Shown here piece after piece: positions 27,371 to 33,882 of a DNA stretch of 64,000 bases (position 1 is its first letter; each line of letters starts with the position of its first letter). The notes under the pieces were generated by a model. The model searched no databases and was not told where the DNA came from. It worked only from the letters and a program-made list of their open reading frames with translations. Source of the stretch: Citreimonas salinaria (GTDB taxonomy: Bacteria; Pseudomonadota; Alphaproteobacteria; Rhodobacterales; Rhodobacteraceae); NCBI RefSeq assembly GCF_900107235.1, contig NZ_FNPF01000004.1:248001-312000 (forward strand), read 5' to 3'. The position numbers and the translations under genes were made by a program.

Positions 27371-28450
27371 CTAGCGCCCCGCGACGAAGCCGATCCCCGC
27401 CGCGACGACCAGCGCCGCGATCACCGCCAGCGCGATCTTGATCGCCGACCAGGGCCGTTCGCCCTGCACGCGGCCGGTGCGGCCGTTGACCACGAAGCGG
27501 TAGCTGTCGCCGCGATACTTGTAGGCGGCCATCCACACCGGCAGCAGCACGTGCTTGAAGGTCACGTCCGAGACCTGCGTGTCGACCCGGTGAATGCGCT
27601 GGCGGTCGCCGCCGATGTCGAACTTCACCGCCTGCGCGATCGCCGCGTCCATCTTCTTGCGTGCCTCGACGAAGCCGTCGTCGAGGTCGACCTGGTAGGC
27701 CTCGGCGCGGAAACCCGACAGGAACTCCGGCCGGTAGGGCTCCATCGCGGCCAGGTCCCACGGCTCCAGCGCGTCGGTGAAGCGCCGGGGCAGGGCGTGC
27801 GAGGCCAGCACCAGCACGTCGTCGAACCACCTGGTGACGTGGCCCCGGACGTGCCGCCAGCGGACCTTGGCCACGCGCTGCGCCTTGGGCTTGCCGTCGC
27901 GCATGACCGTGCGGGTTTCCCAGTAGACGGTGCCGCGCTCGCCGGAATAGTCGCTTTCGGTATGCGCGTCGAAGGTCCAGTAGGGCACGTAGATGCCCTG
28001 CGGCCGGCGCCCCTTGCGCGCATAGGCCTGCAGCCCCGAGGGCGCGAACCACAGGCTGCCCAGCCAGTCGGTCATCGCCTTCTGCGCCGCCTCCGCGTCC
28101 AGCGCGAAGGGCAGCACGCCGCGCGGCTTGATGTGGCGGTTGGTGCCGGTGTCGGTGACCACGGGCGTCGCGCAGAACGGGCATTCGGCGGCGTGCAGCG
28201 CGGGGTCGAACTCGACCTCGGCGGCGCAGTTGGGGCAGCGGCTGACGCGGGTTTCCTCGATCTCCTGCAGGGGCAGCAGGTTGTCGAGCGCGGCCTTGAA
28301 GTCGAGCTCGCGGATGCCGCCCTCCCAAGGGCCGGGGCCGTCGATGTCGGCGGTGGCGCCGCAATGGTCGCAGACCAGCCGCCCTTCGGCGGGCGAGAAC
28401 CGCATGTCGGCGCCGCAGGTGTCGCAGGGAAAGCGGTGCTCCTCGATCAT
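27371..28450 (-). CDS. Two-zinc-ribbon membrane protein (YdjG-like)
   Basis: A 359-residue protein starting with two zinc ribbons: C9/C12...C27/C30 and C72/C75...C90/C93. A soluble domain follows with [21 protein letters not shown] and [14 protein letters not shown], then a single C-terminal membrane helix (about residues 335-357). Databases often mislabel such proteins as primosomal protein N'. In Bacillus subtilis, YdjG has this layout and works with the SPFH protein YdjI in recruiting PspA to the membrane. The SPFH gene is directly upstream here, which supports a membrane-stress role; no PspA gene is seen nearby. Confidence 0.75.
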
Positions 28451-28477
28451 CTCATGCGATCATCCCGCTCGATCGTT

Positions 28478-29578
28478 TCAGGCCGGCGGCGGGGGCGGCG
28501 GCAGGATCGTGAACAGCTGCGCGAGTTCGTCCACGTCCCCCGCGCGCAGCCAGCCGTCCTGCCCCGGCGTCCAGACAAGCGTCTCGCGCGTCAGCCCGCC
28601 CTCGGCCGCCATGCGCCCCAGGTCGGCCTTGGAATACGGCCCGCGGGTCTGCCCGGCCTCGGCGAGGTGCCAGACGTGTTCGACCGGGGGCGGCGGCGGA
28701 GCGGCGGGCGCGGCCCCCCACGGCCCCGGCTGCACCGCCTGGCCCATCCGCTGCCCCATCTGCATGCCCAGACCGGCGCCCAGCCCCATGCCCATCGACT
28801 GGTCGACCGCGCCGCCCTTGCCCATGGCCTCGGACGCCTTCCACTTCAGATGCTCGTCCAGATTACCCGCGATCCCGCGCGAGGTGCGCGCGTCCAGCGC
28901 CTTCTCCACCGCCGGCGGAAGCGAGACGTTCTCGATGTACAGCTCCGGCAGGCTCAGCCCGTATTGCCGGATCACCGGGTCGATCGCCTCGGCCACCAGC
29001 TTGCCCACCTCGGCGGTGTTCGCCGCCATGTCCAGCACCGGGATGCCCGAGGCCGCGATCGCACGCGAAAACTCCTGCACGATCACGTTGCGGATCTGGA
29101 AGGTGATCTCGTCGGCGGTGAACTGCCCGTCGGTGCCCACGATCTCGGTCAGGAACAGGCCCGGATCGGCCACCTTGACCGCGTAGGTGCCGAAGGCCCG
29201 GATGCGCACCGGCCCGAATTCCGGGTCGCGCATCATCACCGGGTTCTTCGTGCCCCATTTCAGGTTCGTCATCCGCGCGGTCGAGACGAAGTAGATCTCG
29301 GACTTGAAGGGCGATCTGAACCCGTGATCCCAGTGCTGAAGCGTGGTCATCACCGGCATGTTGTTGGTCTCGAGCATGTAGAGACCCGGCTTGAACACGT
29401 CCGCCAGCTGGCCCTCATGGACGAAGACCGCCGCCTGTCCCTCGCGGACCGTCAGCTTGGCGCCGTACTTGATCTCGTTGCCGTGGCGGTCGAAGCGCCA
29501 GACCAGCGTGTCGCGGCTGTCGTCGGTCCATTCGATCACGTCGATGAACTGGCCCGACACGAAATTCCACAGGCTCAT
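28478..29578 (-). CDS. SPFH-domain protein with C-terminal GYF_2-like domain (YdjI-like)
   Basis: A 366-residue protein. Residues about 25-235 are an SPFH (band 7) domain of the YdjI/virion-core type (KLTVREGQAAVFVHEGQLADVFKPG is divided over two strands; IYFVSTARMTNLKWGT is diagnostic). A glycine/methionine-rich and proline-rich linker follows (about 258-300), then a GYF_2-like domain (VWHLAEAGQTRGPYSKADL, LVWTPGQDGWLRAGDV). No transmembrane helix is present, so membrane contact is peripheral. The ATG at 29578 follows GGAGCGAACCCC. It is in the operon between DUF2927 and the zinc-ribbon gene. Confidence 0.8.
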   Translation of the reverse strand: MSLWNFVSGQFIDVIEWTDDSRDTLVWRFDRHGNEIKYGAKLTVREGQAAVFVHEGQLADVFKPGLYMLETNNMPVMTTLQHWDHGFRSPFKSEIYFVSTARMTNLKWGTKNPVMMRDPEFGPVRIRAFGTYAVKVADPGLFLTEIVGTDGQFTADEITFQIRNVIVQEFSRAIAASGIPVLDMAANTAEVGKLVAEAIDPVIRQYGLSLPELYIENVSLPPAVEKALDARTSRGIAGNLDEHLKWKASEAMGKGGAVDQSMGMGLGAGLGMQMGQRMGQAVQPGPWGAAPAAPPPPPVEHVWHLAEAGQTRGPYSKADLGRMAAEGGLTRETLVWTPGQDGWLRAGDVDELAQLFTILPPPPPPA

Positions 29579-29591
29579 GGGGTTCGCTCCT

Positions 29592-30578
29592 TCAGGTGCC
29601 GCCGCCCTCGACCAGTTCGGTGGCAAGGCTTCGGACGATGGGCAGCGCCTGCTCCGGCGTCATGCCGGGGCGCAGCGCGGGGTCGTAGAGGATTTCCAGC
29701 AGCATCGCGTCGTGTTCGGTCAGCAGCGCGAACTCGTCGTCGTCGTTGAAAATCGACGGCCGCGCGCGCGGGCTGTCATTGGCCAAGCCCAGCCCCTGGG
29801 CGATCTCCTCGTGGATGCAGGACTGACGCAGCAGGTCGGGATGCTCGGCCCGGATCACCGCGACCGCGCGGGCGTATTCGAAGCTGCCGAGCCGGTCCGA
29901 GAACGCGATGACCAGGCAATGGATCGAGCGCGGCAGGTCGTCGAACAGCCGCAGCGTCCGCGGGTCCGCCTCGGGCACCAGCGCGCGGATGCGCGGCACG
30001 ATCCCGTTGCGCTCGTCCTCGCCCACGAACAGGACGTGGAAGTTCGGCGCGCTCTCGCTGAGCGAGATCGAGTGCCCGGTGATCCCCGCCAACCGGCGCG
30101 CATAAACGCCCAGCTCGTTGCGCGCGACCGTGCGCAGGTCGGGCGGCACCGAGGCGCCGAACTCGGGCGAGATTCGAACCGGCTGCACCCATTTCTTGAT
30201 CACGCTGGCCTCGCCCTCGGACGGGCGCAGGCCCTCGCCGCGGGCGTATTCCTCGCGCAGGGCGATGGCCTCGAAGTTGCGTACCAGCATCGTGTCGGTG
30301 AACTGCGTGTCCGGCCCGCCGCCATCGGTGCGCATCAGCCCGCGCACCAGAAGGTCGTTCTGGACGCGGGCATAATAGGTTGCCAGCGCGCGGCTGTTGG
30401 ACGATCGCTGCCCGGTGGGCGCGGGTTCGGGTGCCGGCGCGGGCGGTGGCCGCAGGCCGGAGGGACGCGGCGCCGGGGACACGGCGGTCTCGCGCGGGGC
30501 CATGGCGCTTTGCGTGCAGGCGCCCAGCGCCAGCAGCGCGGTCAGGCCGATCGCCCGGGCGCGGCGGGCCGGGGTCAT
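29592..30578 (-). CDS. DUF2927 lipoprotein
   Basis: A 328-residue exported lipoprotein: the signal peptide ends in the lipobox LGAC with Cys21 as lipid anchor. A proline/alanine-rich stretch (about 30-60) leads to the DUF2927 domain. Its most conserved part, SCIHEEIAQGLGLANDSP, places His-Glu and a further conserved Asn-Asp in a layout that suggests a hydrolase or metal site, although this is unproven. It overlaps TelA by ATGA. The family is largely alphaproteobacterial and without assigned function. Confidence 0.8.
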   Translation of the reverse strand: MTPARRARAIGLTALLALGACTQSAMAPRETAVSPAPRPSGLRPPPAPAPEPAPTGQRSSNSRALATYYARVQNDLLVRGLMRTDGGGPDTQFTDTMLVRNFEAIALREEYARGEGLRPSEGEASVIKKWVQPVRISPEFGASVPPDLRTVARNELGVYARRLAGITGHSISLSESAPNFHVLFVGEDERNGIVPRIRALVPEADPRTLRLFDDLPRSIHCLVIAFSDRLGSFEYARAVAVIRAEHPDLLRQSCIHEEIAQGLGLANDSPRARPSIFNDDDEFALLTEHDAMLLEILYDPALRPGMTPEQALPIVRSLATELVEGGGT

Positions 30579-31762
30579 CGCGCCGCGCGCCCGGCAGGCC
30601 GGGTCGTGCCGCCGGACTCGGCCTGTGCCAGCGCAGTGCGCAGCTCGGACTCCATCTTCTGCAGCTCCACCTCCGCCTCGGCCCGGTTGGCCTTGCCCTC
30701 GTCCGCGATGCGCAGGCTGTCCTCGATCGTCGCGATCAGGTCGTCGTTGGCCTTGCGGATGGCCTTGATGTCGAACACGCCGCGCTCGGTCTCGGCGCGG
30801 ATCATGGCGTTGCTCTCGCGCAGGTTGGCGGCGTTCGCGGTCAGCAGGTCGTTGGTCAGGTCCGATGCATCCTTTACCGCCGCCGCCGCCTCGCGCGAGC
30901 GTTGCAGCGTCACCGCCTGCGCCAGCTGCGTCTCCCACAGCGGCACGGTGTTCACCAGGGTCGAGTTGATGCGCGTCACCAGGCTCTTGTCGTTCTCCTG
31001 CACCAGGCGGATCGACGGCAGCGACTGCATCGTCACCTGCCGCGTCAGCCGCAGGTCGTGCACCCGGCGGTCCAGGTCGTCGCGGGCGGCGCGCAGGTCG
31101 CGCAACTCCTGCGCGCGCATCATCTTGTCCTCGTCCCCGGCATTCTCGACCGCCCTTTGCGCGGTCGGTATCTCGGTCGCGTCCACCTCGTCCAGCCGGG
31201 CCTGCCCGGCGGCGATGTAGAGCGCCAGTTCGTCGTAGAAATCCAGCGTCTTGTCGTAGAGCAGGTCCAGCGACTTGATGTCCTTCAGCAGCTGGTGCTC
31301 GTGCCGCAGCAGGTCGTCGGTGATGCTGTCGATCTGCGCCTGCACGGTCTCGTAGCGGGCCTTGAACTTGGCCAGGGGGGCTGCGCGCCCGACCAGCTTT
31401 TCCCACCAACTCCGGCTGCGCCGCGCGTCCAGTTCCGAGATCGAGAAGCCGCGGATCGTCGCCACGATGTCGCGCAGCCCGTCGCCGGCGGGGCCGATCT
31501 CCTTGTTGCGCACCGCCGCCAGCATCGACTGGCTGATCTGCTGCAGCTCGGCCTGCGCGGCCGAGCCGAAGGCCACGATCGAATTCGTGTCGCGCAGGTC
31601 GATCTCGGCCATGCGCCTGCGGATCGCCTCGCCGGTCGCCGCATCGGCGTTCTCGAGCGGGGTCACCGCATCGGCCTGCGCCGGGTCCGGCAGCGTGTGC
31701 GCGCTCAGTTGCTCGACCAGCGTGCTGTCGGTTCTGGCGTGATCGCGGGTCTTGTCGGACAT
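30575..31762 (-). CDS. TelA/YaaN-family toxic-anion-resistance protein
   Basis: A 395-residue, almost wholly helical coiled-coil protein with the TelA-family segments (SRSWWEKLVGRAAPLAKFKARYE split by turns; QDKSLVxRI-like ENDKSLVTRINSTLVNTVP; MIRAETERGVFDIKAI). Homologues are KlaA/TelA of tellurite-resistance plasmids and Bacillus YaaN, encoded beside XpaC. Here it is downstream of two XpaC-like genes and coupled to the DUF2927 lipoprotein. The mechanism is unknown in the family; envelope protection is the usual inference. Confidence 0.85.
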   Translation of the reverse strand: MSDKTRDHARTDSTLVEQLSAHTLPDPAQADAVTPLENADAATGEAIRRRMAEIDLRDTNSIVAFGSAAQAELQQISQSMLAAVRNKEIGPAGDGLRDIVATIRGFSISELDARRSRSWWEKLVGRAAPLAKFKARYETVQAQIDSITDDLLRHEHQLLKDIKSLDLLYDKTLDFYDELALYIAAGQARLDEVDATEIPTAQRAVENAGDEDKMMRAQELRDLRAARDDLDRRVHDLRLTRQVTMQSLPSIRLVQENDKSLVTRINSTLVNTVPLWETQLAQAVTLQRSREAAAAVKDASDLTNDLLTANAANLRESNAMIRAETERGVFDIKAIRKANDDLIATIEDSLRIADEGKANRAEAEVELQKMESELRTALAQAESGGTTRPAGRAAR

Positions 31763-31807
31763 GCGGAAACCTCATGCGAGTGATAAGCGATTATGCGCCG
31801 CGGCGCG

Positions 31808-32680
31808 TCACGGGTCGAGGGCGACACCCTCTCGCCGGAGCCGGTCGCGCAGCACGCCGATCTCGACCTCCAGCGCGGTGGTGTCCTCCAACAGCAGGGT
31901 CTGGGTCTTCTCGCCGAACGACGCCTCGAGATCGGCCAGCAGCCGCAGGAAGTCGTCGCGCGCGCCCGCGGCACGGGTCCGGGGGTCGAGATCGGCATAC
32001 TTGCGTGCCGCGTCGCGCGCGCCGATCAGGTAGACGCCCAGGTAGCGCCGCGCCGCGACCAGGTCGCGCGGGTCCTTCTCGACCCGGCGGATCATGTCGC
32101 GCACGCAGGCGGCCAGCCGGTCGACGCGCGCCTCGATGTCGCGATCACCGGTGCTGCGCGCGGCGGCGGCCATATCGGTCAGGTGCGCCTCGGCCTCGTC
32201 CACAACCTTCGCGACGCGCTTGCCCTGCAGGGTGTCGCCCGCCAGCCCCTTGTCGCGCATCGGGTCCAGCCCGAAGGCCCCCAGGTGCAGCGCGGCGGCC
32301 GAGGCGCCGAACAGCAACGGCGCCGCCAGCGCGGACTGCGAGGTCCAGGCCGCGATCGCGGTGCCGATGCCGCACATCACCGCTGCCAGCAACTTGCGCG
32401 GCAGGGCCGGGCGGCGGGCGATGGTGCGATGGGCATAGGCGGCCTCGGCCCGCAGGCCGTCGCGCAGCAGCCATGCGCCCAACATCAGCGCGCCCGCGCC
32501 CAGCAGACCGGCGGCGAATCCCGCCGCCCCCGCGCCGAGCGACGTGAAGGCCAGCACCACCGGCGGCAGGAACATCACGTTCGACCGCGCGCCCACCGGG
32601 TCGACCCGCGGCGGCGCGCCAAGCGGGCCCGCCTGCGCCGCCGCGCCGGGGCTGTGGCGGTCGCCGTAGCGCCGCGCCAT
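31808..32680 (-). CDS. XpaC-family (5-bromo-4-chloroindolyl phosphate hydrolysis) membrane protein
   Basis: A 290-residue protein with four hydrophobic helices between about residues 35 and 135 and a long helical cytoplasmic C-terminal region (from about 150) rich in charged coiled-coil, as in XpaC. The pattern AFGLDPMRDKG after the last helix is also seen in the paralogue at 32876 (SFGPDPLRDKT). The annotated phosphatase activity in the family is weakly supported. Its ATG lies two bases after the stop of a 29-residue membrane peptide, so the two are coupled. Confidence 0.75.
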   Translation of the reverse strand: MARRYGDRHSPGAAAQAGPLGAPPRVDPVGARSNVMFLPPVVLAFTSLGAGAAGFAAGLLGAGALMLGAWLLRDGLRAEAAYAHRTIARRPALPRKLLAAVMCGIGTAIAAWTSQSALAAPLLFGASAAALHLGAFGLDPMRDKGLAGDTLQGKRVAKVVDEAEAHLTDMAAAARSTGDRDIEARVDRLAACVRDMIRRVEKDPRDLVAARRYLGVYLIGARDAARKYADLDPRTRAAGARDDFLRLLADLEASFGEKTQTLLLEDTTALEVEIGVLRDRLRREGVALDP

Positions 32681-32682
32681 GC

Positions 32683-32772
32683 CTAGACTCCCCCGATCGC
32701 GCCCGACGTCACGCCGAACAGCAGCAGGAGCAACAGCACGTATGTCAGTTTGCGTAGGCCCTTCGCGGACAC
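32683..32772 (-). CDS. 29-residue single-helix membrane protein (GTG start)
   Basis: A frame of 30 codons begins at a GTG preceded by AAAGGGGG and encodes MSAKGLRKLTYVLL, continuing as six leucines in all, then FGVTSGAIGGV, giving one transmembrane helix with a positively charged N-terminus. Its stop is two bases before the ATG of the XpaC-family gene, and its 3' end supplies that gene's ribosome-binding site (GGGGGAG). The tight spacing and strongly protein-like composition argue that it is real. It is too short for ordinary gene finders. Confidence 0.6.
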   Translation of the reverse strand: MSAKGLRKLTYVLLLLLLFGVTSGAIGGV

Positions 32773-32875
32773 CGGGACCCCCTTTGGGATGCGTCGATGC
32801 CCTGAACGTAGGGATTCCCGGCCCCGCTTGCCAGTGCCGACGACGCTCGCCGTCAGCAGCGCGGGGCGGACCGCG

Positions 32876-33697
32876 TCAGGCGGCCAGCGTCTCTCCGCCG
32901 CCGCCTGGCGCGCGCACCGAGGGGGCGGCGGCGCTTTCGGCGTCGTCCGTGATCCACGTGTCGACCGCCTCGCGCATCAGGGCCAGCCGCTCGACGTACC
33001 GACGCGACGCGAAAGGCCCGCGATCGCCCTCTTCCAGGCGCGCGATCTCGGCGGCCAGCCGGTGCTGCAGGTCGGTCAGCAGCGGCTCCATCCGGTCGAT
33101 CCGCGCGCGATCCTGCCGTGCCGCGCGGTGCAGCGTCGCCGCCACGTGGTCGGCGAAGGCGGTGGTCTCGTGCGCCAGCTGGGGGTCGTCCAGCGACAGC
33201 ACGCGCGCCTCGGCATCGGCCAGGGCCGATTCCAGCGCGATCAGCAGCGGGCGGCGCCGGTCGCCGGCACCCGCCTCGGGGCAGTCGGTTGCCGTCTTGT
33301 CGCGCAGCGGGTCCGGCCCGAACGAGATCAGCGCCAGCGCCGCGGCCAGCAGCCCGAACACGGCAGCGACCCGGCCCGAACCGAACCGGTGCAGCGCCAG
33401 CGTGCCCACGACCAGCCCGATCAGCAGCGCGCCGATGATCTTGCGCGGCACCCGCGGCGCCGCCGCCAGCCGCGCCGCCGCGTAGGCGCGCGCGATCCGC
33501 TGGCCGCGCGCGATCAGCCGCACCGCGAGGATCAGCACCACCGCCAGGACCAGCGCGCTCAGCTGCATCGCCTGGCTGCCGTGCAGCGCCCAGACCACCA
33601 GCGGCAGCGCCGCCAGAAGCAGCAGGCCAAGCCGCCCCTCGACGGCGTCGCCGCGCGTCACGAAGCGCAGCGAAGGGATCAGCGCCGGGGCCTTCAT
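32876..33697 (-). CDS. Second XpaC-like membrane protein
   Basis: A 273-residue protein with the same layout as the XpaC gene two frames downstream: two pairs of N-terminal hydrophobic helices (about 22-60 and 80-125), the SFGPDPLRDKT motif, then a helical charged tail ending in a Gly/Ala-rich stretch. The two proteins look like divergent paralogues. The ATG at 33697 overlaps the stop of the small upstream gene (ATGA). About 100 bp without a gene separates it from the 29-residue frame. Confidence 0.65.
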   Translation of the reverse strand: MKAPALIPSLRFVTRGDAVEGRLGLLLLAALPLVVWALHGSQAMQLSALVLAVVLILAVRLIARGQRIARAYAAARLAAAPRVPRKIIGALLIGLVVGTLALHRFGSGRVAAVFGLLAAALALISFGPDPLRDKTATDCPEAGAGDRRRPLLIALESALADAEARVLSLDDPQLAHETTAFADHVAATLHRAARQDRARIDRMEPLLTDLQHRLAAEIARLEEGDRGPFASRRYVERLALMREAVDTWITDDAESAAAPSVRAPGGGGETLAA

Positions 33698-33882
33698 GCC
33701 ATGCCCAGGATGAAGATCATCAGCCACAGCGCCGCGAAGGCCAGGCTGGACGCCCGCCCGCCGCGCGTTCCCAGCGTTCCCGCCAGAACCTGCGCCGTGT
33801 CCCGCAACACCCCCGGCAGCCCGGTCAGGACCAGATATCCGGAGAAGAGCGCCGTGCCCAATGCGATGATCGTGATAGCCAT
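33694..33882 (-). CDS. 62-residue two-helix membrane protein
   Basis: A small protein starting MAITIIALGTALFSGYLV, with hydrophobic helices at about 2-22 and 45-61 and a short polar loop between (TQVLAGTLGTRGGRASS-like, basic). A TTG at 33903 would extend it by seven residues. It is the first gene of the membrane-associated operon and is coupled to the XpaC-like gene by an ATGA overlap. No family is recognised. Confidence 0.65.
   Translation of the reverse strand: MAITIIALGTALFSGYLVLTGLPGVLRDTAQVLAGTLGTRGGRASSLAFAALWLMIFILGMA

Follow-up and report, generated by a model that had tools for sequence, protein, structure and literature searches.

A conserved gene cluster joining XpaC-TelA, a DUF2927 lipoprotein and a YdjG/YdjI-type pair in Citreimonas salinaria and other Rhodobacterales

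Introduction

In Bacillus subtilis, the SPFH protein YdjI, whose placement at the membrane depends on YdjG and YdjH, influences membrane fluidity and brings in the ESCRT-III homologue PspA (PMC8581546). A survey of Psp systems also describes Band-7 and zinc-ribbon proteins, ydjFGHL among them, as partners of PspA (PMC11237479). A second module, xpaC-telA (xpaC-yaaN in Bacillus), shares the LiaSR envelope regulon of Listeria with PspC-type genes (PMC12791056); in the part of that source which cites Collins 2010, the Listeria telA mutant is given as 4-fold more sensitive to nisin and 2-fold more sensitive to tellurite. For R. sphaeroides, a passage of PMC6955997 citing O'Gara 1997 describes telA as a locus of tellurite resistance that contributes to this trait and, according to a further proposal, TelA forms structures beneath the membrane (PMC7824862). 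The protein is widespread, and tellurite, nisin and further envelope agents have all been connected with it. Here, a cluster is described in which these two modules are joined. It lies on the minus strand, at positions 27371-33882 of a stretch of 64,000 nucleotides from Citreimonas salinaria (contig NZ_FNPF01000004.1, positions 248,001 to 312,000; hereafter the window).

The association of TelA with a YdjG/YdjI-type platform provides a concrete hypothesis for its action, and Rhodobacter and Paracoccus offer a tractable host family in which this can be tested. No paper joining TelA and tellurite with SPFH proteins was found in the literature search, nor any that mentioned DUF2927, the family of the lipoprotein encoded in the same cluster.

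Results

Composition of the cluster and comparison with Bacillus

The cluster comprises eight minus-strand open reading frames, named g1 to g8 in the direction of transcription. A preliminary description of this DNA had presented them as a series with tight junctions, and their coordinates, strand and order were all confirmed, as were the six larger family assignments (XpaC, XpaC-like, TelA, DUF2927, SPFH-GYF and two-zinc-ribbon protein) by Pfam and homologue comparison. Ahead of xpaC lies g3 (32683..32772), a 29-amino-acid single-pass membrane peptide with a GTG start. The product of g4 (31808..32680), with a hydrophobic N-terminal half and a helical C-terminal domain, matched Halogen_Hydrol/XpaC (PF10112, E 3.7e-19), and that of g5 (30575..31762) matched TelA (PF05816, E 8.9e-106). 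The lipoprotein gene g6 (29592..30578) belongs to DUF2927 (PF11150, E 1.9e-60). In g7 (28478..29578), a Band_7_1 domain (PF13421, E 4.4e-101) is combined with a C-terminal GYF_2 domain (PF14237, E 7.8e-20) and an invariant proline tail, and g8 (27371..28450) encodes two zinc ribbons (Zn_ribbon, E 1.2e-7), a YdjG-type domain and a single C-terminal transmembrane helix (332-359).

The comparison with homologues of Bacillus spizizenii, in which each E-value holds for a single pair only, related g8 to YdjG (E 3e-37; hhalign 100%) and g7 to YdjI (E 5e-35 over 255 residues), while g5 was 35% identical to YaaN (E 1e-69). Within the core, the TelA stop (30575-30577) and the DUF2927 start (corrected to 30578) form an ATGA overlap, and the g3/g4, g6/g7 and g7/g8 genes are separated by 2, 13 and 27 nt, respectively; the larger spacings are those of g2-g3 (103 nt) and g4-g5 (45 nt).

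As in Bacillus and Listeria, XpaC is followed by TelA on the same strand and directly adjacent, and as in B. subtilis pspA-ydjGHI, a YdjG homologue with two zinc ribbons and a C-terminal helix is adjacent to a YdjI homologue of the SPFH type. In B. spizizenii, however, xpaC-yaaN and pspA-ydjGHI are located approximately 756 kb apart, whereas here the XpaC-TelA pair opens one cluster with the SPFH and zinc-ribbon genes, to which the DUF2927 lipoprotein is joined in Rhodobacterales. The present cluster also differs from pspA-ydjGHI in containing neither PspA nor YdjH/TPM, in the GYF domain that the SPFH protein carries in place of a C-terminal zinc ribbon, and in the position of the zinc-ribbon gene after the SPFH gene. 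The Band-7 associations of PspA (PMC11237479) are similar in that Band-7 and zinc-ribbon proteins stand beside a membrane-stress effector, but those contexts are centred on PspA, and the text of that paper contains neither "tellur" nor "toxic anion" nor TelA.

PspA, already given as missing from the locus in the preliminary description, was not detected in the whole genome: PspA/IM30 (PF04012) had no match in it, including the eight cluster proteins. Among 111 relatives, PF04012 was present in 39 and, judged by coordinates, was never inside the fetched clusters.

Conservation of the gene order

Regions of about 15 kb around TelA were taken from 55 further Rhodobacterales genera (56 loci in all), their open reading frames were scanned with profiles built in the analysis, and the gene order was counted. 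TelA was found in 109 of the 111 Rhodobacterales genomes, almost always as a single copy. XpaC was directly upstream of it in 54/56 loci and DUF2927 next downstream in 52/56, followed by SPFH in 53 and by the zinc-ribbon gene in 48. The complete order XpaC-TelA-DUF2927-SPFH-zinc ribbon was observed in 45/56 genera, or 47 if DUF2927 is taken as optional, and several of the exceptions (three loci) were contig ends. Peptides of the same pattern as g3, with a G-rich motif at their end, were located directly ahead of xpaC in around 40 of the 56 loci (selected by regular expression), and g3 is therefore not a chance open reading frame.

The order XpaC-TelA-SPFH-zinc ribbon, without DUF2927, was also found in four other alphaproteobacterial families. 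Since DUF2927 is absent from the clusters of these families, it looks like a later insertion in the Rhodobacterales line. The merger of the two modules in one locus, as proposed earlier, was thus found to be kept across Rhodobacterales and in four other families; a gene order that is not conserved had been set beforehand as a result that would overturn the proposal, and the order proved to be conserved.

Co-occurrence of the two modules was analyzed in wider samples, with p-values that ignore phylogeny and with author-chosen thresholds. In a 152-genome sample of the class, strong Band_7_1 matches were detected in 8 genomes, all 8 of which carried TelA, adjacent in 6. When the own family was removed, TelA accompanied strong Band_7_1 in 6/6 genomes against 0.44 expected (hypergeometric p 3e-8). 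The YdjG profile matched in 7/152 genomes of the same sample, each with an adjoining Band_7_1 gene and a TelA. Among 199 genomes of Bacillota, 21 had TelA, 21 had Band_7_1 and 10 had both, against 2.2 expected (p 3e-6), and the two were adjacent in none of the 199. Co-occurrence was weak in a wider Pseudomonadota sample with the own family excluded (5 against 2.1 expected, p 0.05). Outside Alphaproteobacteria, no merged cluster was found in the 299 Pseudomonadota or the 199 Bacillota genomes sampled, and a search of genome contigs with YaaN gave Bacillaceae-type loci only.

Promoter and transcription unit

A 44-nt matrix was built from 13 loci sharing CTAG-N18-CCTA (or CTTA) upstream of g3/xpaC and applied to the remaining 41 Rhodobacterales loci. 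In 13 of these 41 held-out loci, the window included, the best site of the whole locus on either strand was the site upstream of the cluster, against about 0.7 by chance. The conserved element reads CTnGCA-N17-CTAnAT. The alphaproteobacterial housekeeping promoter consensus is CTTGAC-N17-CTATAT, which the conserved element resembles in sequence, so that it may be regarded as a putative sigma70-like promoter. The copy of the window, CTGGCA-N17-CTACGT, is located between g2 and g3 (32834..32806, minus strand), 33 nt ahead of the g3 start codon. Due to this position, the core transcription unit is probably g3-g8.

The known stress-sigma promoters were rejected as the promoter of the cluster. Ahead of it, a strict RpoH pattern was present in 2/54 loci, and those of RpoE, EcfG and CtrA in 0-2, with no convincing enrichment of any of the four. 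A TTCCCCCT(AG) box, strongly kept in about 15 Rhodobacterales loci upstream of g3/xpaC, overlaps the -35 region of the promoter or lies just upstream of it, and is possibly a regulator site.

The two remaining genes are add-ons. A small membrane protein of 62 amino acids with two hydrophobic segments is encoded by g1 (33694..33882), and g2 (32876..33697), joined to it by an ATGA overlap (33694/33697), encodes a divergent XpaC paralog with hydrophobic segments. None of the Pfam families matched g2 above the cut-off; its assignment comes from BLASTP against g4 (E 1e-10, again for one pair) and from its score of 165 bits with the family profile. These genes were present in only 4/56 genera, always together (32876-33882 in the window, and three other loci). 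They are probably a duplicated block of "small membrane peptide + XpaC", and may be read from rluB. The single eight-gene unit of the preliminary description was therefore not borne out, given the rarity of g1-g2 and the conserved promoter that follows them.

A lipoprotein with a predicted zincin fold and a substituted site

The g6 product contains a lipobox, LGAC, with Cys23. A regular expression for the lipobox, which was too strict, matched 28 of 53 DUF2927 copies, and by eye nearly all the others also have a Cys behind a hydrophobic stretch. The AlphaFold2 model was confident (pLDDT 84). Foldseek searches with this model gave weak E-values (best 0.018), but the top matches were almost all matrix metalloproteinases, and VIA-align against matrixins gave Z values of about 10 (10.3 over 149 residues), with a root-mean-square deviation of 3.2-3.4 across approximately 150 residues. 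The predicted fold is thus that of a matrixin-like zincin, similar to the metzincin zinc peptidases (matrix metalloproteinases, karilysin).

The preliminary description had emphasized an "HE motif" in this protein. Its register is off by one residue, and it is not the zincin motif; the correct register was settled by aligning the wider PF11150 family, which gives EExxQ at the HExxH columns. At the zincin columns of this alignment, distant members read HELMHVLGLSGH, HELAHGFGFAH, HELLHAVGFFNH, HELMHALGFPGH, HEMGHVMGLRFH and HEMMHALGFRGH, and the cluster lipoprotein reads EEIAQGLGLAND. Whereas distant members keep HExxHxxGxxxH, and metzincins have HExxHxxGxxH/D, the cluster lipoprotein has EExxQxxGxxND, with all three zinc histidines replaced. 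E257, Q261 and D268 occupy the ligand positions, with E258 as the catalytic Glu. These four residues were invariant among 24 sequences, and the EExxQxxGxxND pattern was present in 52/53 copies; H256, by contrast, is not universal, being absent in one locus (L099). The g6 product is not classed as a peptidase here. Judging from the model, it would be a protein of the zincin fold whose site is substituted, whether a pseudoprotease or one binding some other metal.

With six DUF2927 loci of other alphaproteobacteria taken into account, PF11150 falls into two groups, canonical zincins with HExxHxxGxxxH and a lineage with the substituted EExxQxxGxxND, and looks like a family of unrecognised metzincin-like proteins. 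This would assign DUF2927 to the zincin folds, with a clear split between HExxH members and an EExxQ lineage in which four active-site positions are invariant. A second DUF2927 gene of the own genome, located away from the cluster (contig C34, 127737-128336), carries HEELAQAIGPLND and has a counterpart in a second genome (G001).

The TelA model

The AlphaFold2 model of TelA (pLDDT 77, pTM 0.58) is a soluble, very long helical hairpin with helices at 129-207, 210-326 and 332-384. Fold searches retrieved generic long-helix neighbours (ClyA-like toxins, Mrs2/CorA, SMC coils), the best Z of 13.0 being a usual score for helical models. For a candidate identity of TelA as a hidden PspA/ESCRT-III protein, the searches gave these generic matches only, with PspA absent from them. 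The shape is compatible with a rod lying under the membrane. Sequence searches of the PDB with TelA, XpaC and DUF2927 gave chance-level matches only.

Discussion

By analogy with Bacillus PspA-YdjGHI, the products of g3-g8 are proposed to form one inner-membrane maintenance assembly in which XpaC-TelA occupies the place of PspA, a proposal to which an even chance is given. In its favour are the conserved gene order, the nearly constant single-copy TelA, the co-occurrence of the modules in the class sample and in Bacillota, the undetected PspA of this genome and the data on homologues. In this scheme, the YdjG-type protein g8 would be anchored by its C-terminal helix, with the zinc ribbons in the cytoplasm, and would retain g7, the soluble SPFH-GYF protein, at the membrane. 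There, g7 would oligomerise into a scaffold affecting membrane fluidity, possibly through GYF domains binding neighbouring proline tails; the presence of a GYF domain together with an invariant proline tail suggests such self-association. XpaC (g4) and the 29-amino-acid peptide would anchor TelA (g5), which would form a layer under the membrane where this is damaged or stressed. The DUF2927 lipoprotein (g6) would be the periplasmic member and, because its zinc ligands are lost, its probable action is binding or sensing, not cleavage.

The physical assembly and its role in envelope stress are extrapolated from the homologues of Listeria, Bacillus and R. sphaeroides. The telA of this last species would very probably be the present locus, since TelA is single-copy in nearly all Rhodobacterales. 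From the earlier idea of one envelope-maintenance system linked to a lipoprotein, the gene merger and its order stand, and the envelope role derives from homologues. Several observations weigh against the proposed assembly. The TelA searches, with a moderately confident model, provided no clear match to PspA/ESCRT-III or another fold. YdjH/TPM, which helps to recruit PspA in Bacillus, had no match among the eight cluster or five flanking proteins, and some TelA-XpaC pairs occur without SPFH-zinc ribbon. In addition, nearly all of the 39 PspA-bearing relatives also carry the cluster; as both coexist, TelA is not simply replacing PspA, and replacement is not general. A more far-reaching form of the proposal, a PspA-independent membrane-repair machine of alphaproteobacteria, is unlikely; in it, TelA, anchored by XpaC and nucleated by the SPFH and zinc-ribbon proteins, would take the polymerising role of PspA/ESCRT-III, and the pseudo-matrixin lipoprotein (H-H-H to E-Q-D, catalytic Glu kept) would be a periplasmic sensor or the binder of a different metal.

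The conserved order could also be read as that of two independent housekeeping modules, XpaC-TelA for tolerance of tellurite and toxic anions and SPFH-zinc ribbon for membrane fluidity, sharing one promoter without forming a single machine and inherited in this order within the alphaproteobacteria. This is rather less likely than a single assembly. Descent could have kept the order within Rhodobacterales, where the flanking rluB and dtd are kept as well, the two modules are apart in Bacillota and in other Pseudomonadota, and a Vibrio SPFH-zinc ribbon pair has no TelA beside it. Independence is harder to reconcile with the class sample, in which strong Band_7_1 never occurs without TelA even when both are unlinked, or with the co-occurrence above chance in Bacillota despite the lack of linkage; moreover, separate families share the four-gene core, and in their fetched loci it is flanked by neither rluB nor dtd.

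An operon devoted mainly to tellurite or oxyanion resistance, with TelA and XpaC acting on oxyanion entry and the other genes supporting them, would agree with the family name of TelA, with the contribution of the R. sphaeroides gene related in the cited passage of PMC6955997, and with the plasmid relatives (klaB/telA of RK2 type) named tellurium resistance proteins. Nevertheless, it appears quite unlikely: a gene that nearly all Rhodobacterales carry in single copy is better explained by a core role in the envelope than by a trait specific to one toxin, and the Listeria mutant, as given in the part of PMC12791056 quoted above, is hit harder by nisin than by tellurite. The five flanking genes encode an rluB-type pseudouridine synthase, a tRNA-type deaminase, a PfkB kinase, dtd and a Gfo/Idh oxidoreductase, and thus provide neither a Ter nor a phage context; no TerB, TerC, TerD or TerF family was detected among these five proteins or, by Pfam, among the eight of the cluster. 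Phage defence, a role suggested for certain Ter and membrane-surveillance loci, is very improbable. TelA does occur in Ter operons for which phage exclusion has been proposed (PMC7824862) and had a weak match to PADLOC PbeC (15.9 bits), but no other PADLOC match was obtained for the seven proteins tested, and in most genera the locus keeps a fixed chromosomal place next to rluB and dtd, instead of being patchy.

Related arrangements in other genomes

In 12 genera, a multi-pass membrane protein, which by its sequence resembles a cytochrome b561-type protein, is encoded between the SPFH and zinc-ribbon genes. The reversed order, TelA then XpaC, with no SPFH or zinc-ribbon gene nearby, was found in several alphaproteobacterial families (five loci). 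Additionally, a plasmid of Vibrio coralliilyticus carries the SPFH-zinc ribbon pair mentioned above, whose zinc-ribbon protein is 36% identical to g8, near genes for TIR-domain and TRAFs-binding-domain proteins.

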